A stretch of DNA of 64,000 nt, taken from the IMG/VR virus record IMGVR_UViG_3300020056_002227, positions 1 through 64,000 of that record; one strand, given 5' to 3'. Source of the stretch: a virus. A model generated the notes under the pieces. That model ran no database searches. It saw nothing but the letters and a program-made list of their open reading frames with translations, and was not told the DNA's origin. The translations under genes and the position numbers were made by a program. Positions 3,917-62,447 of this stretch are shown one piece after another (the stretch's first letter is position 1; each line of letters opens with the position of its first letter).

Positions 3917-4072
3917 TCATTTTGTGTCATAATAAATGCATGTATATGTATGACGACCTTCGGTCTCACTACATACCATGCAGCGCTTCTTTGGATCTTT
4001 GTAATCAAACTGTTTATGGTGTTTTTCTTCCCATACAGTTCGATCAGTTAATTTCTTTTCATCTTTAGTCAC
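3917..4072 (-). CDS. Small protein with two Cys pairs (51 aa), GTG start
   Basis: The frame starts at GTG 4072, overlapping the last 8 nt of SHMT, and ends with a TGA that overlaps the upstream ATG candidate of the cytochrome gene, so the three are tightly packed. The protein is charged and has C-M-V-C at residues 31-34 and a single Cys ten residues later (H-T-Y-T-C-I-Y-Y), suggesting partial metal binding. No Shine-Dalgarno is evident, as expected for a coupled start. Function not recognised. Confidence 0.55.
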   Translation of the reverse strand: MTKDEKKLTDRTVWEEKHHKQFDYKDPKKRCMVCSETEGRHTYTCIYYDTK

Positions 4073-5210
4073 TTAAATACTGCACGATCTTTTTGGCCAA
4101 ATGTGCAAACCAAATCTCATCGTGCCCTCTAGTTGTCTCTGCGGCAGTGCCGATTCTTATACCAGATGTTTCCATGAATGGTCGTGGATCATTTGGTACA
4201 CCGTTCTTATTTACAGTAATTCCTCTGCTCTCGAGCTTATCTGCTGCCTCTCTACCAGAATATTTACTCTTACTCAAATCAAGCAATAGTATATGACTAT
4301 CGGTGCCATCAGTTAAAAGGTTAAATCCCCCATCTCTGAATACACCAGCCATTGCCTGGGCATTCTTAATAACTTGGGCTCCGTATTTTTCGAAGTCAAG
4401 GGTGGACGCCTCTACAAATGCTTGTGCTTTTGCAGCAATGATATTCATCAAAGGACCACCTTGTGTGCCAGGGAATACAGCACTATTGATTTTCTTTGTA
4501 TAATTCGAATCATTCCACAGGATGATTCCACCACGAGGTCCCCGCAGCGTTTTGTGTGTTGTCGAGGTCACAACATCAGCCCATTCAATTGGATTGTCGT
4601 AAACACCCGCTGCAATCAGACCAGAATAATGTGCCATATCTACCATCAATAGAGCACCTACTTGATCAGCAATGAATCTAAATGTCTCCCAATCAATCTG
4701 ACGAGGATAAGCAGAAGCACCGGCAATAATTAATCTTGGCCTATAGTTATATGCCAATTTCATGACTTCATCGTAATCAATATATCCGTTATGATCGACA
4801 CCATACGTTACAGCATCATAAATCTTACCAGACATATTGACCGGTGCACCATGGGAAAGGTGTCCACCAGACGCAAGGTCCATTCCTAGAATTCTGTCAC
4901 CAGGTCTCAGAAATGCTTGAAAGACAGCTGCATTTGCATTTGCACCAGAGTGAGGTTGAACATTGGCGTATTGACACCCATAAAGAGATTTGAGCTGTTC
5001 AATTGCGAAGGTCTCAATCTCATCCATATGATCACAGCCATTATAATAGCGACGACCAGGATATCCTTCTGCATATTTGTTTGTAAAGACAGAACCACAC
5101 AATGCCATTACTTCGTCACTTGCAAAATTCTCGCTTGCAATCAATTCTACTGTTGTCTGTTGGCGTTTCAGTTCTCTTTGCCAGATGCGGTCAATTTCAG
5201 GGTGCAACAA
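4065..5210 (-). CDS. glyA: Serine hydroxymethyltransferase
   Basis: 381 residues, near family length (about 410-430, shortened at the C-terminus). Interconverts serine + THF and glycine + 5,10-methylene-THF using PLP. Visible motifs: E-L-I-A-S-E-N at 22-28, Y-A-E-G-Y-P-G-R-R-Y-Y at 46-56, V-D-M-A-H-Y-S-G at 190-197 and the PLP lysine in T-S-T-T-H-K-T-L-R-G-P-R at about K220. The start is TTG at 5210, placed 8 nt after AGGAG; no ATG fits. It lies between ligase and the cytochrome gene. It would recharge THF for ThyX (13196) and also make glycine, the substrate of the ALAS at 8086. Confidence 0.95.
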   Translation of the reverse strand: MLHPEIDRIWQRELKRQQTTVELIASENFASDEVMALCGSVFTNKYAEGYPGRRYYNGCDHMDEIETFAIEQLKSLYGCQYANVQPHSGANANAAVFQAFLRPGDRILGMDLASGGHLSHGAPVNMSGKIYDAVTYGVDHNGYIDYDEVMKLAYNYRPRLIIAGASAYPRQIDWETFRFIADQVGALLMVDMAHYSGLIAAGVYDNPIEWADVVTSTTHKTLRGPRGGIILWNDSNYTKKINSAVFPGTQGGPLMNIIAAKAQAFVEASTLDFEKYGAQVIKNAQAMAGVFRDGGFNLLTDGTDSHILLLDLSKSKYSGREAADKLESRGITVNKNGVPNDPRPFMETSGIRIGTAAETTRGHDEIWFAHLAKKIVQYLSD

Positions 5211-7133: not shown

Positions 7134-7162
7134 ATTATATCAGATAAAAAGTGTGTTGTCAA
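7134..7162 (-). promoter_or_regulatory. Sigma70-type early promoter
   Basis: Minus strand TTGACA (7162..7157), 17 bp, TATAAT (7139..7134) with extended -10 TG: full consensus. Drives the 112-residue gene, glutaredoxin, ligase, SHMT, cytochrome c and SNase. Confidence 0.88.
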
Positions 7163-7429: not shown

Positions 7430-7672
7430 TCAAGTGTTTTTTGCATTATCAAGAATTTTACCCCATATGTATTCGGCCTCTGGAAATTCGACCATCTCAT
7501 CGACTTGCATATCAATATAGTCTAATTCGTCTAATGCAGCTGTCGTGACTTCGAGTTTCCACATATCATGGATTGCTCTTACAAATGCAGCATTATTGAA
7601 TGCCTGAGGCCCGAACTCTTTGAGAAAGTCCTCAAGCCGACTATATTCTTGTCTATCCTTTTTCTGGGGCAT
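7430..7672 (-). CDS. Conserved hypothetical protein (80 aa)
   Basis: ATG 7672 behind GGAGA, overlapping the end of the DUF454 gene by 20 nt. Acidic: contains F-G-P-Q-A-F-N-N-A-A-F-V-R-A-I-H and L-D-Y-I-D-M-Q-V-D-E-M-V-E-F-P-E. Helical, soluble, no motif recognised. Part of the primase-to-DUF454 operon. Confidence 0.7.
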   Translation of the reverse strand: MPQKKDRQEYSRLEDFLKEFGPQAFNNAAFVRAIHDMWKLEVTTAALDELDYIDMQVDEMVEFPEAEYIWGKILDNAKNT

Positions 7673-8099
7673 TTTTTATTTCTCCTTTCAACCAACCGAT
7701 ACGCTTACCGAGGTGTACTCGTCTGTCATATTCTTCTATAGAGCCTGGGTATCTCCAAGCCCAAACTAGCCAGAAGAGCATGAATAAACCAATGCTAACG
7801 GTAGCAATGGGTTTCAATTGGAGATAGAGAATCCAAACAAAACTAATCGTACAACATACAAGCATAACATACTTTGCTTTTGTTGGATAGACCCTCTTAT
7901 TCGTCCAATTCTGCACATATGGTCCAAAGGTTGGGTGTTCCCACACCCACTTTTCTAATCTAGGTGAACTCTTACTGAAACACCACAATGCTAGAAGAAG
8001 GAATGATGTTGTAGGAATGCCAGGTACAATTGCTCCGATGTAAGCCATACCTACTGATGCCAATCCCCCTGCTCTCCACAAATTTCTACGAATGTTCAT
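7653..8099 (-). CDS. DUF454 (YbaN-like) inner-membrane protein
   Basis: 148 residues. Matches the DUF454 pattern: R-A-G-G-L-A-S-V-G near the start, [16 protein letters not shown] at 22-37, [10 protein letters not shown] and [10 protein letters not shown], and further membrane helices around 75-115. The family is widespread in Proteobacteria with no established biochemical function. ATG 8099 overlaps the end of ALAS by 14 nt, with GAGG upstream, so the two are coupled. That placement suggests, but does not show, a role linked to tetrapyrroles. Confidence 0.85.
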
Positions 8100-9285
8100 C
8101 AAATACTTTCCTCAATGCTGTTACCAAATCATGCATCATACCGTCATCATGTAATGGTGTTGGTGTTATTCTTAATCGTTCTGTACCCACATCTACCGTG
8201 GGATAATTAATTGGTTGAATGTATAAACTATATTTATCTAGTAGTTCATCGCTTATGACCTTACATTTTTTAGCATCACCGACCATGACTGGTACAATGT
8301 GAGTACAGGCTGCATCATGTACCATGAGACCAGCGTCAAGTATCATCTGCTTGAGTGTGGTTGCTCGCTCTTGATGTTTCTCCCTTAACTCATTATGATC
8401 TTTTAAGTAGCGTATTGATGCGATGGCTCCTGCACACACGACAGGTGATGTTGATGTGGTGAAGATGAAGCCGGATGCGATTGATCGAATTGCATCAAGA
8501 ACAATACTATCACCAGCAATGTAACCACCGTGACAACCAAACGCTTTTCCAAGTGTTCCATTGATTATATCTACCCTCTTTTCTCCTATTTTCTCACAGT
8601 ATCCTGCCCCGGTATTACCGTACAGTCCTACTGCGTGTACCTCATCGATATATGTAATTGCACCATATTTTTCTGCAAGATCACATATTTCTTTAATTGG
8701 GGCTACATCCCCGTCCATACTATAAACACTTTCAAATACAATACAAGGTGTTTGGCCATCCAGTTGAGATGTTTGTAGTGCCAATTCTAGTTCTGCCATA
8801 TCATTGTGTTGCCAAATCTGCTTCGAAGCACCACTGTGTCGAATGCCTTGAATCATACTAGCATGATTCTTCGAATCACTGAGATATATCAAATTTGGTA
8901 TGATTTGGGCTAGAGCTACCAGAGACCATTCATTTGCAACATATGCAGAAGTGAATAGAACAGCGCTCTCTTTCTGGTGTAAAAGCGCCAGCTCTTTCTC
9001 TAGTGTTACGTGGAAATGAGATGTGCCACCAATGTTTCGTGTACCACCCGATCCAGCACCTGTCTTATCAAGGGCTGTGTGCATCGCATCAATTACAAAT
9101 TGATTTTGACCCATATTGAGGTAATCATTCGAACACCAATTTACTATATTCTTAGGTGCGTATTTTCCGTACCATGTGGCTCTTGGAAATTCACCTCGTG
9201 TTCTTACGATGTCGTTGAAAATTCTATATTTACCTTGATCCTTTAGATCGGTAATTACCTTCTCAAACGCCGTCTTGTTTATCAT
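8086..9285 (-). CDS. hemA: 5-aminolevulinate synthase (C4 pathway)
   Basis: 399 residues, the length of alphaproteobacterial ALAS. Condenses glycine and succinyl-CoA to 5-aminolevulinate, the first step of heme synthesis. Seen: R21, [11 protein letters not shown] at 49-59, [13 protein letters not shown] at 76-88, D-S-K-N-H-A-S-M with H141, Y-I-D-E-V-H-A-V-G with D214 and H217, G-T-L-G-K-A-F-G with the PLP lysine K247, and R-L-R-I-T-P-T-P. These positions match the R. capsulatus enzyme almost one to one, and separate it from KBL/BioF relatives. ATG 9285 was chosen over an earlier frame start because it gives the normal N-terminus; it overlaps the previous gene by 23 nt. Apparently intact. Confidence 0.95.
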
Positions 9286-9643
9286 CAACCTTGTCCCAAA
9301 TATTATCGGCTGTGAACCGATATGCTCCAATACATTTGTATCGAGTCCAGTTGTCAATTAAACTCAAAAGATACTCGTTTTCTGTCTCATACAAATAATA
9401 TATATGGCCAACCTTTGGTACAAAATTATACCGAGCACGATAAACCATCTCAGTTTGTTGGGCCAACTCTACCAACTCTTCGTATTCACGATTTAGTTGA
9501 TTCAGTCTCTCTTCGAAATATTTACTAGCATTTAGACCACGTTCACTTCGAAAGAGGTCAGTGTCCGGTAATTGAATGGCCGGAGCACTGACATTCGACC
9601 CATAAGGTAAAAGACCTGGAGCACTAGGCAGCGTATGCTTCAT
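9263..9643 (-). CDS. DUF2452-like protein
   Basis: About 126 residues. Matches the DUF2452 layout: an N-terminal [13 protein letters not shown], a long coiled helix ([14 protein letters not shown]), then [21 protein letters not shown] and [12 protein letters not shown]. Family function unknown; members occur in bacteria and phages. Start ambiguous: ATG 9643 overlaps the end of nrdB by 20 nt, a further ATG at 9673 is possible. Lies between nrdB and ALAS. Confidence 0.75.
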
Positions 9644-10826
9644 CCCAGCTACCCGACAGACCTGCCACTTCATATTCAGTTACACGATTCTCAAAGAAGT
9701 TGGTATGGTCTGCTCCATTCAGAACCCATTCCAACCAGGGAAGTGGATTGTCTTTGACTCGGAAATTTGGTTTCATACCAAGTTGAATCAAACGACGGTC
9801 GGTAATATATCGAATATACTGCTTGACTTCTGATTTCTCGAGCCCCTCAATCTCACCCATCTTATATGCAAGATCGATGAACTTGTCTTCAAGCTTTACG
9901 ATCTGACGAGACATTTCATAAATCTCTGCCTTGAATTCATCGTCTACAATACGAGGATGTTCTTGGCAGAACACCTTAAACAGTTTGGAATTGCCTTCTA
10001 CATGCATGCTCTCATCACGAATCGACCATTCTACAACCTTACCCATGCCTTTCATCTTACCGAACCGTTGGAAATTCAACAGCATCACGAAAGATGCAAA
10101 GAGGGCAACACCTTCATTGAATACAGATTTGGCAAGTGCCTGACCGAGTCCTCTCATTGTATTTACGTCCGACTCCATCATGTATTCAATCTTGTCGGCC
10201 ATCTCTTTGTATTCAAGGAATGCGTGATATTCTTCAGCAGACAGACCAAGGGTCTCATTCAGTAGAGCATATGCACGTTGGTGAATACCTTCTCGTGCAG
10301 CAAAGGAAGATAGCATGTTACGGACTTCGTTGTTCTTAAACTTAGGAATGAACTGATCAAAATAATTCTGTCCTACAGCAACATCTGACTGAGTAAACAG
10401 TCTCAGGATATTCGTGATATATTCTTTTTCTACCGGAGTAATCTTGCCACCTTTCCAATCGGACACATCTTCAGATAGATCGAGCTCATCTTCAATCCAG
10501 TGTGCCTTCTCATGTCTAGTTGTGATATCGATTGCCCATGGATAATGAAAAGGCTTATAAGTTTCAGAGAATTCGAGTAGACCACCAGAAGACTTTTTAA
10601 TCAAGGTATCTGCGATTGCCATTAGATCATTATAGGTACCAATGTGCTTATCATCGATAAAGATTTGAGGTACGGATCTTACGTTTGGATACTTTTGGTA
10701 AAACGACATGCGTTGCTCTTCATCATCGAGTTTGATCTCGGTAAATGTATAATCATGCTGCCGGAACCATGCCTTTGCTTTTTCACAAAAAGGGCAGAAA
10801 GACTTAGAGTAAATTACTACTTGCAT
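9624..10826 (-). CDS. nrdB: Ribonucleotide reductase small subunit with N-terminal glutaredoxin
   Basis: 400 residues. Residues 1-78 are a glutaredoxin (S-K-S-F-C-P-F-C with C11/C14, S-V-P-Q-I-F-I-D-D at 51-59). From about 85 on is a class Ia-type R2: L-S-E-D-V-S-D-W (first Asp ligand), R-E-G-I-H-Q-R-A-Y (Glu, His and the Tyr expected to carry the radical), F-N-E-G-V-A-L-F (Glu), I-R-D-E-S-M-H (Glu, His), and a C-terminus rich in acidic and aromatic residues that binds R1. So the metal and radical residues are intact. The fusion places the reductant on the enzyme itself. Between AOX and DUF2452 in the operon. Confidence 0.95.
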   Translation of the reverse strand: MQVVIYSKSFCPFCEKAKAWFRQHDYTFTEIKLDDEEQRMSFYQKYPNVRSVPQIFIDDKHIGTYNDLMAIADTLIKKSSGGLLEFSETYKPFHYPWAIDITTRHEKAHWIEDELDLSEDVSDWKGGKITPVEKEYITNILRLFTQSDVAVGQNYFDQFIPKFKNNEVRNMLSSFAAREGIHQRAYALLNETLGLSAEEYHAFLEYKEMADKIEYMMESDVNTMRGLGQALAKSVFNEGVALFASFVMLLNFQRFGKMKGMGKVVEWSIRDESMHVEGNSKLFKVFCQEHPRIVDDEFKAEIYEMSRQIVKLEDKFIDLAYKMGEIEGLEKSEVKQYIRYITDRRLIQLGMKPNFRVKDNPLPWLEWVLNGADHTNFFENRVTEYEVAGLSGSWDEAYAA

Positions 10827-10841
10827 TGGGGGATTTCCTCT

Positions 10842-11414
10842 TTATTGAGATAATTTAAAATTTGTTTGCGAATGGTGCTTTTCGTCCTGCTGGACTCTAT
10901 ACACCATGTCGTATAGTCTTGCATCGGGTTTCAGGTCATAATAATCAATTGCAAGTTTCGGTGCGGGTGTATTATCTATCTCGCCATGAGATATCATTTT
11001 CAAATAGCTCTCATAACTACGTACTGCTTCTTCTTCGAAATAATGTACCATGAGATGTGCCGTCTTAGGGAAGAAGATATAAAACACAAGATAATAATGC
11101 CAGAATATAAACTGAGCAACGAGAATCAATGCTCTTTCAAACCAATTCGGCTGTGCGATCTCAATGAAGAACATGAGATGCATTCTTTCGTTCTCGGCCT
11201 CTGCCAAGAGTTCTCGTATTTGTGGACCATATCCAGTCTTTAATTTTCTAAGACTGCGCAGATGAATCCACATGCCGGCAACCATACCAGGTACTCCGGC
11301 AATTGTTTCTAATACTACTGCTCTGTGACCATACCTCTTTGCGAAGAATGTATCAGCAAAGAATCGAAACATCTTTGTCTGACCATAGGCAAAGAAATGG
11401 CTTATCCTTGACAT
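10842..11414 (-). CDS. aox: Alternative oxidase (di-iron ubiquinol oxidase)
   Basis: 190 residues from ATG 11414 (GTG 11423 possible). The AOX signature is complete: V-L-E-T-I-A-G-V-P-G-M-V at about 35-46 (first Glu), A-E-N-E-R-M-H-L around 74-80 (Glu and His), Y-F-E-E-E-A-V around 126-131, and Q-D-E-K-H-H around 177-181 (Glu, His). Two hydrophobic amphipathic helices anchor it to the inner membrane. It would oxidise ubiquinol and reduce O2 to water without heme or proton pumping. Shorter N-terminus than mitochondrial AOX. It overlaps the 3' end of nrdA by 13 nt and precedes nrdB. Cyanophages carry the related PTOX; this copy looks closer to AOX. Confidence 0.92.
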   Translation of the reverse strand: MSRISHFFAYGQTKMFRFFADTFFAKRYGHRAVVLETIAGVPGMVAGMWIHLRSLRKLKTGYGPQIRELLAEAENERMHLMFFIEIAQPNWFERALILVAQFIFWHYYLVFYIFFPKTAHLMVHYFEEEAVRSYESYLKMISHGEIDNTPAPKLAIDYYDLKPDARLYDMVYRVQQDEKHHSQTNFKLSQ

Positions 11415-13186
11415 GCAACGCACTCGTCTTGATTCTCTTCTTTACCGTTGGTAAAATTGACGGGTGCAACCAAAGAATCAAGTTTCTCTCTTTCCACCTT
11501 GGCAGATACGTTCTCAGCCTTATTAGATGTTTCGGTGCGAAGATAGTAGAGACCCTTACAACCCTGTTTCCAAGCCTCGAAATGAACCTTGTGTAGATAT
11601 GATTTAGGAGCACCAGCTGGAAAGAAAACATTCAGAGATTGACCTTGACACAGATGAGTCTGACGATCACCAGCAAGTTTAACCAACCACAACTGGTCGA
11701 GTTCAATTGCTGTCTTAAATACTTCTTTTACATGGTCAGAAAGAAAATCAAGATGTTGGACCGAACCACCAGATGTAATGATCGAAGACCAAATTTCATC
11801 TGTGTTCTTACCGAGACGTTCTAGTTCTTTCTCTAGGTAGGGGTTCTTATTCAGGTGAGATCCAACACGAGTACGAGAGGTGAACGCATTTGCTTTCCAA
11901 GGTTCGATGCTGGGAGATGTATCTACGATCATAGAAGAATTAGCATTGGGTGCAATTGCTAGCATGTGAGCATTCCGGCGACCAGTACCTTTCATATCTG
12001 GTGCTTCACCCTTCTTCTTACCCATATCCAGCGTGGCCTTAACGGCTCTTTCCTTTATCAAAGAGAAAATTTCTTCATTCTTTTCTATTGCTGCATCACT
12101 GCCAAAAGGAATCATGTGTTTTTGGAAATAAGAGTGCAGGCCCATTGCTCCAAGACCGAGAGATCTTTCACGTTCTGCACTATATCGAGCACGAGAAATT
12201 TCGTCTCCAGCATGATCGATAAAGAACTGTAATACATTATCGAGGTAGATAATTAGATCTTCAATCATGGTGGTATCTTTCCAGTCATCGTATTTTTCTA
12301 CATTCACGGATGACAGACAGCATACAGCAGTACGTTCTTCGTTGGTGACAAGATGAATTTCATTACACAAATTCGAACCACGAATTTTCAGGCCCATATC
12401 TTGTTGTGTTTGAGGAAGAGCACGATTTGCTGTATCAATGAAATTCAGATAAGGTTCACCTGTTCGATATCGAGTCTCCAATAGATGTTCCCACAATTTA
12501 CGAGCCTTCATGGTATCTCTTACTGTACCGTCATCTGGATCAATTAGATCCCAATCCGCACCAGACTGAACTGCCTCCATAAACTTATCGGTGATATTTA
12601 CGGCGTGATGTAGGTTCAAATTTTTACGATTTACATCTCCAGTAGGAATCCGCATATTCACGAACTCGATGATATCTGGATGATCACAGTCAATATACGC
12701 CGCATAAGAGCCCTTTCTTGTGCGTCCCTGGCGGTACGCTACCATATCCGCATCAACGGTATGTAAGAACGGCATCGGACCAGGAGCCTTTTTGGATACT
12801 GCTCTTACGTCAGACCAGTGGCCACCAACACCCCCACCTTTAACCGACAACCATCTCAGCTCTGCACTATGGTCGATCAACCCTTCTAGGGAATCGGGAA
12901 CATATGTCAAGAAACACGAGATAGGTAATGCCTTTACTGGTTCACCCTTAACAGGTGCATTAGAAAGGACTGGAGAGGCAAACATGAACCAACCCTTAGA
13001 AACATAATCATAGATTCGTTGCGCTAACTTCAAATCACCATAAGAATATGCCACTGCAGCCCTTGCAAATGCTTGCTGGGGACTCTTCTCATCTTCACGA
13101 CAATAATAATCCTTTAACAGTTTCGATGATTGCTCTGACAGTAACTTGTTTCTCTTGTTATCGATTTGGATTCCAAGGTGATCCAT
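11402..13186 (-). CDS. nrdA: Ribonucleotide reductase large subunit, class I
   Basis: 594 residues, short for NrdA because the N-terminal ATP-cone is absent, so dATP overall-activity control is probably missing. Active-site features: L-P-I-S-C-F-L near 88-94, G-G-G-V-G-G-H-W, N-L-C-N-E-I (radical Cys region), A-V-C-C-L-S-S-V-N, P-N-A-N-S-S-M-I and the C-terminal redox pair C-V-A-C-Q-G. It reduces ribonucleotides with NrdB (9624). ThyX lies directly upstream. The 3' end overlaps AOX. Confidence 0.95.
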   Translation of the reverse strand: MDHLGIQIDNKRNKLLSEQSSKLLKDYYCREDEKSPQQAFARAAVAYSYGDLKLAQRIYDYVSKGWFMFASPVLSNAPVKGEPVKALPISCFLTYVPDSLEGLIDHSAELRWLSVKGGGVGGHWSDVRAVSKKAPGPMPFLHTVDADMVAYRQGRTRKGSYAAYIDCDHPDIIEFVNMRIPTGDVNRKNLNLHHAVNITDKFMEAVQSGADWDLIDPDDGTVRDTMKARKLWEHLLETRYRTGEPYLNFIDTANRALPQTQQDMGLKIRGSNLCNEIHLVTNEERTAVCCLSSVNVEKYDDWKDTTMIEDLIIYLDNVLQFFIDHAGDEISRARYSAERERSLGLGAMGLHSYFQKHMIPFGSDAAIEKNEEIFSLIKERAVKATLDMGKKKGEAPDMKGTGRRNAHMLAIAPNANSSMIVDTSPSIEPWKANAFTSRTRVGSHLNKNPYLEKELERLGKNTDEIWSSIITSGGSVQHLDFLSDHVKEVFKTAIELDQLWLVKLAGDRQTHLCQGQSLNVFFPAGAPKSYLHKVHFEAWKQGCKGLYYLRTETSNKAENVSAKVEREKLDSLVAPVNFTNGKEENQDECVACQG

Positions 13187-13195
13187 GATTGCTCC

Positions 13196-13864
13196 TTATT
13201 CGGTTACGTAATCTTTCGCAAGAGGAAAGATATGGTGAATTGCCGCGGCACAAGCACGCGCAAGTTCCATGTGTTCTTTTTGAGTACCATTTGCACTTCG
13301 GAGTTCAATATAGTGAATCCAAGAGCGAATGGTTCCATTGACATAAAGACGAGAGACAGTCAGTCCTTCAGGTAATACTGCCCGGGCTTGTTCTTTAGCG
13401 ATACCATTATCGATAGCCCATTTATATAGTTCTTTAACCTTGTGAATGAGTTCCATCTGTCTCATGTTCCATTTTTCATACAGTCGAGGATCATTAGTAG
13501 CAATAGAATTCTGTCGATTCTTGGGGTCTTGTAATCTTGCCTCTCTAGTTACAAATTCCAAATCTTCAGTGGGGTCTGCATAACGTTGACTGAATTCTTG
13601 GAAACTAAAACTACGATGCCTTATTAGCTGTCTTGCAATATCTCTTGTAGTTTCTACCTCGAGACACGCACTAGCCATTTCAAATGGCGACCAGTGTTTG
13701 TGTTTTGCAAGATACTTTAAAAGCTTTTCACTTGTTTCAGTATTGTATTGATTTGCAGGGTTACTGACTCGAGCACAGAAAGCAATCAAGTCTTGTATAT
13801 CGGATATCCCTTCAGAATCCATTAATCTAGTTGGTTGACTGTAACTAATCAACTTCACATTCAT
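13196..13864 (-). CDS. thyX: Flavin-dependent thymidylate synthase
   Basis: 222 residues with the ThyX motif R-H-R-S-F-S-F-Q-E-F-S-Q-R-Y at 82-95. It methylates dUMP using FAD, NADPH and methylene-THF and releases THF rather than dihydrofolate, so it needs SHMT (4065) but no dihydrofolate reductase; none was seen here. Active as a tetramer in the cytoplasm. Placed between primase and nrdA, 3 nt from the primase stop. Confidence 0.95.
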   Translation of the reverse strand: MNVKLISYSQPTRLMDSEGISDIQDLIAFCARVSNPANQYNTETSEKLLKYLAKHKHWSPFEMASACLEVETTRDIARQLIRHRSFSFQEFSQRYADPTEDLEFVTREARLQDPKNRQNSIATNDPRLYEKWNMRQMELIHKVKELYKWAIDNGIAKEQARAVLPEGLTVSRLYVNGTIRSWIHYIELRSANGTQKEHMELARACAAAIHHIFPLAKDYVTE

Positions 13865-14922: not shown

Positions 14923-14951
14923 ATTTTATCATGTTTGTTGGGGAATGTCAA
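14923..14951 (-). promoter_or_regulatory. Sigma70-type early promoter
   Basis: Minus strand TTGACA (14951..14946), 17 bp, TAAAAT (14928..14923), extended -10 TG. Heads the primase-thyX-nrdA-AOX-nrdB-DUF2452-ALAS-DUF454 operon; no later promoter was seen before 7162, so this is the likely source of ALAS and AOX transcripts. Confidence 0.85.
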
Positions 14952-15512: not shown

Positions 15513-15541
15513 ATTATAATACATTTAAGAGAAAATGTCAA
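15513..15541 (-). promoter_or_regulatory. Sigma70-type early promoter
   Basis: Minus strand TTGACA (15541..15536), 17 bp, TATAAT (15518..15513): full consensus. It lies just after the stop of the FkbM gene and drives the coiled-coil membrane protein. Confidence 0.87.
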
Positions 15542-36616: not shown

Positions 36617-36645
36617 ATTATATCAGGTTTTATGGCATTTGTCAA
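36617..36645 (-). promoter_or_regulatory. Sigma70-type early promoter for 33-59-32
   Basis: Minus strand TTGACA (36645..36640), 17 bp, TATAAT (36622..36617), extended -10 TG: full consensus, lying just after the terminator. Confidence 0.87.
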
Positions 36646-37853: not shown

Positions 37854-38597
37854 TTAAGGATTGGGATTGTAAAAAGTGCCTTGATCAACTGGATATAGCT
37901 TTACCTCTTCGAATAAAACGTCTTCTACATACTGCTTAATTTCTTCTTCACCCAATTTCATGGCCTTCAAAGAATTCCAGAGCTGTTGGTTCTTCTTTTG
38001 ATTGATACAGTATCTATTGTGACTTTCCATACGATCCTCGCCCAACCAAAATTGTTGGTGTTCAATCTGTTCAAGATAATAATGGATCAATCTTATTGCA
38101 GTATCACAAAACTGCTCTGTCTCTTCACCCTCACGAACGTTTCCTGCTGCAACCATATGTGGAGAGAAAATTTCTTTTGCCCATTCAGGCAATTCCCTTT
38201 CTGTTTTCCACTCCAAGTCTCTGGTCGCAAGACCAAATGTAGTAATGATGGGGTGTGTTTCGTCGGATACTGGAGAGAAATCGAAAAATGAACCGCTGAT
38301 CTTATTAGGTCCGGCCACAACATCCAATCCCAAGATCGGATAATGGAATGATGTGCCGGGAAAGATATTAATGTGCATCAACCAAAGTTTTGGTTTACCC
38401 TCAATAGGCTCAATGATTTTCAAGTGTGCCTTACGAACGGGGCCAGATTGCCAAAACAGATCTGTCCAACCTTCGAATTCGTGTATGTGTTTTTCATTAT
38501 CAAAGCGCTCCATGTGCTTATCAAATATCTCAATGATATCAGTAGACAGTTTGCGCAAACGATTCAGTAGGGGTGTGTCCATAATATATTCAGCCAT
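37854..38597 (-). CDS. pcyX: Ferredoxin-dependent bilin reductase, PcyX/PebS type
   Basis: 247 residues. Family features: F-W-Q-S-G-P-V-R-K-A-H-L at 48-59, H-I-N-I-F-P-G at 75-81, Y-P-I-L-G-L-D-V-V-A-G at 86-96, F-F-D-F-S-P-V-S at 104-111 with D106 where the family's essential proton-donating Asp lies, L-P-E-W-A near 140, and C-I-N-Q-K-K-N then Y-V-E-D-V-L-F toward the end. It reduces biliverdin with electrons from ferredoxin, probably to phycoerythrobilin by analogy with PcyX from uncultured oceanic phages; the product cannot be read from sequence alone. It starts 3 nt after heme oxygenase. Confidence 0.85.
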   Translation of the reverse strand: MAEYIMDTPLLNRLRKLSTDIIEIFDKHMERFDNEKHIHEFEGWTDLFWQSGPVRKAHLKIIEPIEGKPKLWLMHINIFPGTSFHYPILGLDVVAGPNKISGSFFDFSPVSDETHPIITTFGLATRDLEWKTERELPEWAKEIFSPHMVAAGNVREGEETEQFCDTAIRLIHYYLEQIEHQQFWLGEDRMESHNRYCINQKKNQQLWNSLKAMKLGEEEIKQYVEDVLFEEVKLYPVDQGTFYNPNP

Positions 38598-38600
38598 TAA

Positions 38601-39146
38601 TTACTCGTTATTAAATAGTGTGTCCAATTCTTCAAACAGTTTTGTTGCGTATTGAAAACAAATAATTGCTTCATCTACCATACCATCATAAAGCAATTCA
38701 CGAATGCCAGAGATTAACTCTCTCCTGTTTTCAAATTCGTACATGGTACCAGAACCAGGTACCCTCTTCTTAATTATCTGGCCACCGTGCATATCACCGA
38801 AGTGTCGTACATAAAGGTGTGCTAGGAGGTCGTCATTGTCCTCTAGTGAAAGGATATGGTCGATATATTCATCTACGGATCTGAGGTTTTCAGTGATCCA
38901 TGGTAGATTATACTCTTCTTCTAGTTCACATAAATCTGATAATATCTTATCTGCACGGAATACACCACGAAGATCCTGTGCCAGGTGAACTCTTTCTTCA
39001 AGGGTTTGATATATCTCATACTGCGACTTTAAATAGTATTGATACTCGACCGGAGAGATATCACCACTTATTAGTTTGCCAGCAAATTTGGATTGCTCTG
39101 CCATATCGTGGTGTTTTTGAGTTAATTCTTTTAGACTAGATGCCAT
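38601..39146 (-). CDS. ho: Heme oxygenase
   Basis: 181 residues from ATG 39146 (GAGGAG 4 nt upstream). Proximal heme ligand in K-H-H-D-M-A-E, probably H13; Y-L-K-S-Q-Y-E-I-Y at 38-46; distal-helix signature H-F-G-D-M-H-G-G-Q at 115-123. Cleaves heme to biliverdin, CO and Fe2+ with electrons from ferredoxin. Shorter than cyanobacterial HO1 (about 240) but complete in the conserved core. Directly coupled to the bilin reductase. The only promoter signal seen upstream is a late one. Confidence 0.92.
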   Translation of the reverse strand: MASSLKELTQKHHDMAEQSKFAGKLISGDISPVEYQYYLKSQYEIYQTLEERVHLAQDLRGVFRADKILSDLCELEEEYNLPWITENLRSVDEYIDHILSLEDNDDLLAHLYVRHFGDMHGGQIIKKRVPGSGTMYEFENRRELISGIRELLYDGMVDEAIICFQYATKLFEELDTLFNNE

Positions 39147-39233
39147 ACGACTCCTCATAATAAGTTGGTGCCCCTGTTCGGTAGCAGGGCTGGGGCCACA
39201 CCCTGTCAAGGCTGCGACTGCCTTGAGTGAATT
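39147..39233 (-). promoter_or_regulatory. Structured leader of heme oxygenase mRNA
   Basis: About 85 nt between the late promoter and the ATG. The minus RNA starts with hairpin AAGGC-agucgca-GCCUU, then contains CAGGG, CCCUG and a second CAGGG in that order, so the middle CCCUG can pair with either flank: two mutually exclusive hairpins. The second one ends about 25 nt before the start codon. This is the layout of a regulated leader, but no known riboswitch class was recognised. Confidence 0.35.
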
Positions 39234-50912: not shown

Positions 50913-51400
50913 TTACTAACTACCTATCACCGGCATCATTTACAATCTCAATTGAGAGATTGCCAAACGTAGAGTTCTTCACACAGACTCTTACGATCCC
51001 GGATATCTCTACCTCTCCGGTCGAGGTAGCAAATCCACTAAAGGCACTGTATGCGACCGGTGATCGTGTCACCTATGGTGACCTAGACCTCAGCTTTGTC
51101 GTCGACGAAGATATGAATAACTATCTTGAGATTTTGGGTTGGCTCGAAGGTATTGGTTTCCCCGATGATAGCAATCAGTATAAGGCTCTTGAGAGTAGTA
51201 AAGCTGGTATTGTAAGTGATATTCGGGTGATCATTCAAAACAGCCACAAAAACCCGAACATAGAATTCGTATTCACAAACGCATTCCCCACAAGTATGTC
51301 GAGTGTCGAACTCGATATATCTCAATCTGATATCACATACCCAAAGGCAAATGTCTCATTTCGATATGATGATTTTAAAGTGAACAAAATTAATCGTTGA
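50909..51400 (+). CDS. Tail-tube-superfamily structural protein (gp19/gp54-like)
   Basis: 163 residues. Contains F-T-Q-T-L-T-I-P-D-I, G-D-R-V-T-Y-G-D-L-D-L-S-F-V-V-D-E-D-M-N-N-Y near 52-72, I-L-G-W-L-E-G-I-G-F-P and a C-terminal I-E-F-V-F-T-N-A-F-P-T-S-M. This is the pattern of a marine T4-like virion protein related to the tail tube fold. It is odd among replication genes and overlaps gp52 by 4 nt. Confidence 0.75.
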   Translation: MITNYLSPASFTISIERLPNVEFFTQTLTIPDISTSPVEVANPLKALYATGDRVTYGDLDLSFVVDEDMNNYLEILGWLEGIGFPDDSNQYKALESSKAGIVSDIRVIIQNSHKNPNIEFVFTNAFPTSMSSVELDISQSDITYPKANVSFRYDDFKVNKINR

Positions 51401-51425
51401 CAGCCTGGTTAAAACTTGATATAAT
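51397..51425 (+). promoter_or_regulatory. Sigma70-type promoter, leaderless configuration
   Basis: TTGACA (51397..51402), 17 bp, TATAAT (51420..51425), full consensus with extended -10 TG. The ATG of the dioxygenase is at 51434, 8 nt past the -10 box, so the RNA would begin about 2 nt before the start codon or at it. Confidence 0.82.
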
Positions 51426-61220: not shown

Positions 61221-62447
61221 ATGTATCAACCTGCTCAGACACATGAAGAATTGCAACACGAATGGAAAAATCAGTACATACAATGGTATGCTGCTGGGAT
61301 GCCCTCTTTCCAAGCTCCGAAGAAAGAAATTTTCAAACGGCTACCCATTCACTTCAAGACGCAAGAAGATCGTCAACACTTCAGTGATCGGCTGGGATAC
61401 AATCTAACAAAGAAAACCAATTACGTCTATTACCCAGAAAAGGGCCGTGAAGCAAATCGAATGAACCGTTACGAAGAAGAAGATAACGGTCTGCTTCCTC
61501 GGTACCCGATCTATATTATCAGTAAGGGTCGATGGGATACGCGACACACTGCAAAGTCGCTAGAAGAATTGGGTATCCCTTATTTCATTGCGGTAGAACC
61601 TCAAGAGTATGACAAATACGTAGAGGCAACACCACCGGGTCTTGGAACGGTATTGAAATTGCCGTTTTCTAATCATGGTAAGGGATCTGGGCCTGCACGT
61701 AATTGGTGCTGGGAACATTCACAGGCAAACGGTTTTGAAAGACATTGGTTGATGGACGACAATATCGAGCGCTTCATTCGACTACATAATAACAAACGAT
61801 ATCGTGTTGCTAAGGGTGCGGCTATCTTCCGTGCTACCGAAGATTTTGTAGACCGATATGAAAACATCGCACTTGCTTCTTTTCAATACAAGGCGTTTGT
61901 GGTAGAGGGTTGTCCGTATCAACCGTTCATTCTCAATACACGAATGATGTCCTGTATTTTGATTGACAATAACTGTCCTCACAAGTGGAGAGGCAAATTT
62001 AATGAAGACGTTGATCTCAGTATTCGTGTTCTCAAAGAAGGGCTTTGTACTGTTTTGATGTATGCTTTTGTTCAAGGTAAACTCCGAACCGGTACGGTCA
62101 AGGGTGGAAACACGACTGAGGTGTATGAAGACTATCAGGTAGATGATGAAAACGATCCAGCGTATAATAAATCTAGGATGCTAAAAGAAATGCACCCAGA
62201 TTGTGTTACACTGGCAGAAAGATATGGTAGGGTTCATCATCACGTAGATCTTGATGCAATCAAAAACAAAGATGGGTATCCTGCACGACAAAATGCTTTG
62301 ATATTAAAGAAAGATGTACCCATTATTAATAAGGTAGATAACTACGGAATGAGATTGATGCGCAATTGGGGTACTGATGAACAATACCCAGACCCCAGTT
62401 TTGAGATCGATGAATTCCCTGCTGGGAGGCCTTCAGTTCATGGCTAA
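61221..62447 (+). CDS. Glycosyltransferase of TET-associated (TAGT) type
   Basis: 408 residues. N-terminal shared module to about residue 75, then I-Y-I-I-S-K-G-R-W-D-T-R near 97-108, G-I-P-Y-F-I-A-V-E-P-Q-E-Y near 118-130, A-R-N-W-C-W-E-H-S and W-L-M-D-D-N-I-E-R-F near 174-183 with a DD motif. This is the pattern of phage glycosyltransferases associated with TET-type oxidation of modified cytosines. No TET/JBP gene lies in this window. Probable DNA hypermodification enzyme. Confidence 0.75.
   Translation: MYQPAQTHEELQHEWKNQYIQWYAAGMPSFQAPKKEIFKRLPIHFKTQEDRQHFSDRLGYNLTKKTNYVYYPEKGREANRMNRYEEEDNGLLPRYPIYIISKGRWDTRHTAKSLEELGIPYFIAVEPQEYDKYVEATPPGLGTVLKLPFSNHGKGSGPARNWCWEHSQANGFERHWLMDDNIERFIRLHNNKRYRVAKGAAIFRATEDFVDRYENIALASFQYKAFVVEGCPYQPFILNTRMMSCILIDNNCPHKWRGKFNEDVDLSIRVLKEGLCTVLMYAFVQGKLRTGTVKGGNTTEVYEDYQVDDENDPAYNKSRMLKEMHPDCVTLAERYGRVHHHVDLDAIKNKDGYPARQNALILKKDVPIINKVDNYGMRLMRNWGTDEQYPDPSFEIDEFPAGRPSVHG

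Follow-up and report, generated by a model that had tools for sequence, protein, structure and literature searches.

The gene alaS, at positions 8086-9285 of the analysed DNA, most probably encodes a working phage 5-aminolevulinate synthase (ALAS) of the valaS kind, acquired long ago from SAR11-like alphaproteobacteria and, as an auxiliary metabolic gene, maintained by selection; judging from its sequence and its relatives, we give this reading a probability of about 85%. It is not new in kind and is a further member of the lineage of phage valaS genes, named and found in marine and freshwater myoviruses by Wegner et al. (2024, Nat Commun, PMC11480375). What is added here to the main text of that study is the operon position of the gene behind ribonucleotide reductase genes, the strong promoters of host type and the DUF454 gene that constantly accompanies ALAS. 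In addition, one long record has the entry enzyme of tetrapyrrole synthesis and heme-opening enzymes carried together by a phage.

An intact ALAS gene in a T4-like phage

The window, i.e. the whole 64-kb stretch that was analysed, is part of a virus record of 169,742 bases in total (169.7 kb) from a T4-like phage. The same record carries T4-type portal, terminase large subunit, tail sheath, head maturation protease and baseplate hub genes, together with phage DNA polymerase, gp32 and gp59.

8086-9285, minus strand: alaS, 5-aminolevulinate synthase (ALAS), 399 aa, ATG start, TAG stop; identified by TIGR01821 and tree

The frame is complete, its 399 codons running on the minus strand from the ATG at 9285-9283 to the TAG at 8088-8086, and the plus strand across 8086-9285 is full of stops. 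A longer ORF, reaching 9357, corresponds to a TTG extension; since full-length relatives begin at the ATG at 9285, the latter is retained as the start. TIGR01821, the NCBIfam model of 5-aminolevulinate synthase (EC 2.3.1.37), matches residues 4-397 of 399 with 566.1 bits for a cut-off of 338.55. With an E value of 3.8e-170 and at least 90 related IMG/VR loci, this match is far beyond chance. The nearest solved structures are also ALAS enzymes, R. capsulatus 2BWN included. The initial annotation had proposed an intact ALAS in a phage at this place, and the family score over the cut-off, the open frame and the T4-type phage genes of the record all uphold it.

Residues distinguishing ALAS from related enzymes

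Residues were mapped on the numbering of Rhodobacter capsulatus (Rc) ALAS. Among the substrate and cofactor residues checked, none is missing: R21, W50, N53, T82, R83, N84, I85, S136, H141, K155, D214, H217, T244, K247 and R372 of alaS are those of the R. capsulatus enzyme. The PLP lysine and catalytic residues (Rc K248, D214, H217 and H142) correspond to K247, D214, H217 and H141, and the catalytic residues are invariant across the 66 distinct phage ALAS sequences compared.

The enzyme could nevertheless merely resemble ALAS and use another acyl-CoA, as KBL, BioF (8-amino-7-oxononanoate synthase) or SPT (serine palmitoyltransferase) do. These enzymes belong to the same fold family, their models match the alaS protein at lower scores, and the four residues R21, D214, H217 and K247, by which the initial annotation separated ALAS from them, are present as claimed but are shared with relatives: KBL and BioF both have D214, H217 and K247, and BioF has the arginine of R21 as well. 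However, the competing models stay under their curated cut-offs (BioF 309.3 bits for 426.45, KBL 258.6 bits for 493, SPT below its own), whereas ALAS is far above. On alignment, the positions telling ALAS from KBL and BioF are W50, T82, N84 and K155, equivalent to the succinyl-CoA specificity positions Rc W51, T83, N85 and K156. Here KBL displays F, V, F and R, and BioF F, S, H and L; alaS and all 66 distinct phage homologues compared are of the ALAS type. As the tree also separates alaS from KBL and BioF, we consider another acyl-CoA substrate very improbable.

Phylogeny and selection

The phylogenetic tree suggested as a check by the initial annotation was built with FastTree from 134 sequences and rooted on KBL and BioF. 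alaS groups with ALAS, far from KBL and BioF, inside a phage lineage whose sister is the ALAS of the alphaproteobacterial Pelagibacteraceae (SAR11), with a support of 0.984 for the joint group. The initial annotation had named grouping with KBL or BioF as the outcome that would speak against ALAS; tree and family model alike exclude it.

Phage ALAS loci number at least 90 in IMG/VR, some near-duplicates included, with identity down to 59%, and in three of them the protein is identical to the alaS product. Among the phage isolates of INPHARED, no phage ALAS was found: the 19 matches are KBL/BioF-like, with less than 36% identity, and lie mostly on unannotated or bacterial-looking records. alaS evolves under purifying selection, dN/dS being 0.06-0.07 with respect to relatives of 86% protein identity, an approximate value since dS exceeds 1.

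Some entries labelled as bacterial fall within the phage lineage, namely three Rhodobacteraceae contigs from one bin and contigs of Neomarinimicrobiota, Flavobacteriales and Neisseriaceae. As a DUF454 gene adjoins ALAS on those of the first three groups, these are probably misbinned phages. The contigs of Rhodobacteraceae bacterium Water_Bin34 (L029, L034 and L088) carry ALAS, DUF454 and phage-like neighbours, and their bin holds three bilin reductases; they are probably phage sequences binned with a bacterium and may parallel the Rhodobacter-like bin, the bacterial exception in the tree of Wegner et al. (PMC11480375). The Neomarinimicrobiota contig of 335 kb (L030), with ALAS and DUF454 and with the bilin reductase of the same bin on another contig, is possibly a large misbinned phage. 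On the Neisseriaceae (betaproteobacterial) contig (L032, 5968-7185), ALAS lies inside the phage lineage with weak support and has bacterial-looking neighbours (patatin, APH-type kinase and efflux genes), a possible case of phage-to-bacterium transfer.

Gene neighbourhood and promoters

4065-5210, minus strand: serine hydroxymethyltransferase (NF000586, 559 bits, over cut-off)
7653-8099, minus strand: DUF454 (YbaN-like), predicted helical membrane protein of 148 aa (PF04304, E = 3.6e-32)
9263-9673, minus strand: DUF2452 protein (PF10504, E = 2e-7), overlapping the alaS start and the nrdB end
9624-10826, minus strand: nrdB, ribonucleotide reductase small subunit with an N-terminal glutaredoxin domain (NF009398, 680.9 bits, over cut-off)
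11402-13186, minus strand: nrdA, ribonucleotide reductase large subunit (PF02867, E = 4e-109)
13196-13864, minus strand: thyX (TIGR02170, 157.7 bits, over cut-off), in a gene block shared with nrdA
14923-14951: sigma-70 site from a one-mismatch scan, upstream of the alaS-DUF454 block
15513-15541, minus strand: perfect consensus promoter for sigma-70, preceding the block that ends in alaS and DUF454
36617-36645 (minus strand) and 51397-51425 (plus strand): further perfect sigma-70 sites, among the 12 of the window
61221-62447, plus strand: TET-associated glycosyltransferase (PF20691)

alaS belongs to a run of minus-strand genes composed of a primase-like gene, thyX, nrdA, nrdB with its glutaredoxin, DUF2452, alaS and DUF454. 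Because frames overlap in the pairs nrdB/DUF2452, DUF2452/alaS and alaS/DUF454, co-expression of the four genes from nrdB to DUF454 is likely. The 64-kb window holds 12 perfect TTGACA-N16-18-TATAAT sites for 0.05 expected, which likely are early promoters read by the host sigma-70. After the site at 15513-15541, the next perfect promoter lies at 7134-7162, past DUF454. We suppose that ALAS would be co-produced with ribonucleotide reductase, the genes overlapping in a single run that follows strong promoters of host type.

The record being metagenomic and ALAS a normal alphaproteobacterial gene, alaS might come from contaminating bacterial DNA, or from a host gene wrongly assembled into a phage contig. 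Yet the order nrdB-DUF2452-alaS-DUF454 recurs in many contigs (L001-L005, L011), the alaS frame overlaps both of its neighbours, and gene and window match in GC content (40.6% and 40.4%); an artefact of this sort has a next to negligible probability.

A genuine phage gene could still be a neutral passenger, lodged in a hot spot behind nrdB and playing no role in infection. ALAS indeed mostly lies near nrdB and DUF454, and these two also share a neighbourhood in phages without ALAS nearby, as an insertion hot spot predicts. Against this, the frame is intact with an approximate dN/dS of ~0.07, signs of strong purifying selection are seen across many lineages, and ALAS occurs in no fewer than 90 viral loci, its catalytic residues being unchanged in 66 of 66 distinct sequences compared. 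The passenger explanation is thus improbable, and we favour a gene kept by selection.

Serine hydroxymethyltransferase yields glycine, the substrate of ALAS, and methylene-THF, used by ThyX; several related loci likewise have its gene close to ALAS. It could feed glycine to ALAS, thymidylate synthesis via ThyX being the simpler reason. At the other end of the window, the PF20691 glycosyltransferase is a hint that the phage DNA contains glycosylated modified bases.

A constant DUF454 partner

The ATG of DUF454 sits inside the last alaS codons, so that the two genes overlap. The predicted structure of the protein comprises helices only, with moderate confidence (pTM 0.51). Of 90 phage ALAS loci (L001-L017, L098-L170), 81 have DUF454 on the same strand and within 2.6 kb of ALAS, a count inflated by the relatedness of the phages; in the other nine, at most 1.4 kb of contig follows ALAS downstream. 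Wherever the flanks are long enough, DUF454 is present (81/81). In about half of these 81 the ALAS and DUF454 frames overlap or at least touch, in others genes intervene, and DUF454 is located upstream of ALAS in L162 and L170. Each of ten large ALAS records has exactly one DUF454, which adjoins ALAS by comparison. In some more distant phages the two genes are kilobases apart on opposite strands, or farther still. Near bacterial ALAS, DUF454 was found in none of 64 loci.

DUF454 is not exclusive to ALAS: ALAS is missing from the surroundings of most DUF454 phage loci, and nine of 16 larger records lack it altogether. Bacterial neighbours were also considered as a clue to a heme protein and gave no heme signal: among the 74 neighbours of 30 Pseudomonadota DUF454 loci, no family is common to more than two, and no heme family appears among the 25 of 86 families listed. 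In the literature, two papers (PMC7970244, PMC12282271) link DUF454 loosely with iron starvation and with loci containing heme oxygenase, and both DUF454 and heme oxygenase are among the domains co-occurring with T11SS genes in a survey (PMC12282271).

A conserved two-gene phage module, in which DUF454 would handle a tetrapyrrole from the phage-driven pathway, is a tentative idea that we hold to be rather unlikely. Export of excess porphyrin or heme, or placement of heme at the membrane, could be examples of such handling. Since DUF454 also occurs in phages without ALAS, a shared function can only be hypothesised. DUF454 has no occurrence in the main text of PMC11480375, and its constant link with ALAS is the one lead here that may be new. 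If this link is functional, it would provide a testable role for a membrane protein that is widespread but has no known function.

Heme oxygenase and bilin reductase

38601-39209, minus strand: hemO, heme oxygenase (PF01126, 69.7 bits for a cut-off of 23)
37854-38597, minus strand: ferredoxin-dependent bilin reductase, pcyA/pcyX-like (PF05996, 66.9 bits for a cut-off of 31), directly after hemO

Cassettes hemO-pcyA/X-valaS have been reported as intact, broken and stand-alone (PMC11480375). The three genes are not contiguous in the window, alaS (8086-9285) lying 29 kb from the hemO-bilin reductase pair (37854-39209); this is the ‘broken’ form of that study. A bilin reductase is present in seven of ten ALAS-bearing virus records of at least 60 kb and, where seen, is tens of kb from ALAS. 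As ferrochelatase was found in none of these ten records, the rest of the heme pathway must be supplied by the host. The role proposed for valaS is the upkeep of tetrapyrrole supply in the infected cell (PMC11480375). By analogy with this published model, ALAS is plausible as a control point of tetrapyrrole synthesis for the phage, as the initial annotation had put it. Part of the heme would then be opened to bilins by the phage HemO and bilin reductase.

ALAS can also serve other ends: according to PMC4525017, ALAS paralogues of actinomycetes serve C5N pathways, and alaS might likewise be a cyclizing-type enzyme making the C5N unit of a secondary metabolite instead of tetrapyrroles. The tree, however, puts alaS beside SAR11 ALAS, its annotated neighbours concern nucleotide metabolism, DUF454 and DNA metabolism, with no acyl-CoA ligase or amide synthetase among them, and HemO and bilin reductase are encoded in the same record. 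A tetrapyrrole role is thus retained, and we see hardly any chance for a cyclizing enzyme.

Heme-feedback ligands

In feedback-inhibited ALAS, heme ligands have been shown for Caulobacter (His340 and Cys398, PMC6154995), with His342 and Cys400 as the counterparts in R. capsulatus. It has been proposed in print that phage ALAS, without heme ligands, evades heme feedback. alaS indeed lacks the ligand histidine, having a lysine (K340) at the position of Rc His342, and its C-terminal tail contains no cysteine, the protein stopping before the tail that bears Rc Cys400. Yet the histidine is also absent from both complete SAR11 ALAS and both SAR116 ALAS (2/2 each), and from most of the other ALAS compared, in a set retrieved by motifs typical of phage ALAS and biased toward close relatives. 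This weakens the case for escape from heme feedback as an adaptation of phages. Because SAR11 and SAR116 enzymes also lack it, the loss of this histidine is not specific to phage ALAS, which corrects the earlier idea; from these comparisons, its absence is probably inherited and not a phage trait.

Origin of the gene and host of the phage

The initial annotation also held that ALAS is restricted to Alphaproteobacteria and eukaryotes and so points to the host. This does not stand: proteins above the TIGR01821 cut-off with ALAS residues occur in other bins, by their labels Bacteroidota, Kapaibacterium, Actinomycetota, a Deltaproteobacterium and Betaproteobacteria. Moreover, one valaS phage, cited by Wegner et al., has been assigned to a gammaproteobacterium (PMC11480375). 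For both reasons the ALAS gene alone neither fixes the host nor marks it as alphaproteobacterial. From its place in the tree, alaS would originate in a SAR11-like alphaproteobacterial lineage, and it shows the source of the gene and not the host. Other gene relatives give conflicting answers: the portal is closest to Sinorhizobium phages (55%), hemO and bilin reductase to a SAR11 phage, and nrdB, at the DNA level, to Methylophilales phages (76%).

Comparison with known systems

Phage valaS genes, CB_2 vAlaS among them, are the most similar system. Here as there, ALAS is encoded by an aquatic T4-like myovirus and falls in a phage clade closest to Pelagibacteraceae, as in the placement by Wegner et al. 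(PMC11480375); the active site is kept, Rc His342 is absent, and hemO and bilin reductase reside in the genome as a broken cassette. CB_2 vAlaS, a close relative, complements the ALA auxotroph E. coli ST18, the mutation K250A abolishing it, and yields ALA in lysates (PMC11480375). The checks suggested in the initial annotation, a tree and complementation of an auxotroph, have in this way already turned out positive for a relative. As far as can be told, the present record is a different contig from those of Wegner et al.

The closest cellular relatives are the AlaS of SAR11 (Pelagibacteraceae), a sister group with 59-60% identity, equally devoid of Rc His342. The cellular proteins differ by a longer C-terminal tail (411 versus 399 aa) and have no DUF454 nearby. 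R. capsulatus ALAS (PDB 2BWN) is of the same family, with 53% identity over the aligned part and the same substrate residues, but carries His342 where the phage protein has K340, and the latter ends before the Cys400 tail.

Among isolates, Pelagibacter phage Mosig EXVC030M has the proteins closest to HemO (39%) and to bilin reductase (35.5%), encoded likewise by hemO followed directly by the reductase gene. In contrast, Mosig gave no ALAS match in the search and has an annotated ferrochelatase (L299, 309-1079) near these two genes, whereas the present record encodes ALAS and no ferrochelatase. Phages may differ in the end at which they enter the heme pathway. Finally, the hemO-pcyA-alaS island of Bradyrhizobium sp. 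ORS278 (PMC11480375) unites the same three genes in one genome; there the island is contiguous and includes a phytochrome gene, whereas the phage ALAS stands 29 kb from the other two.
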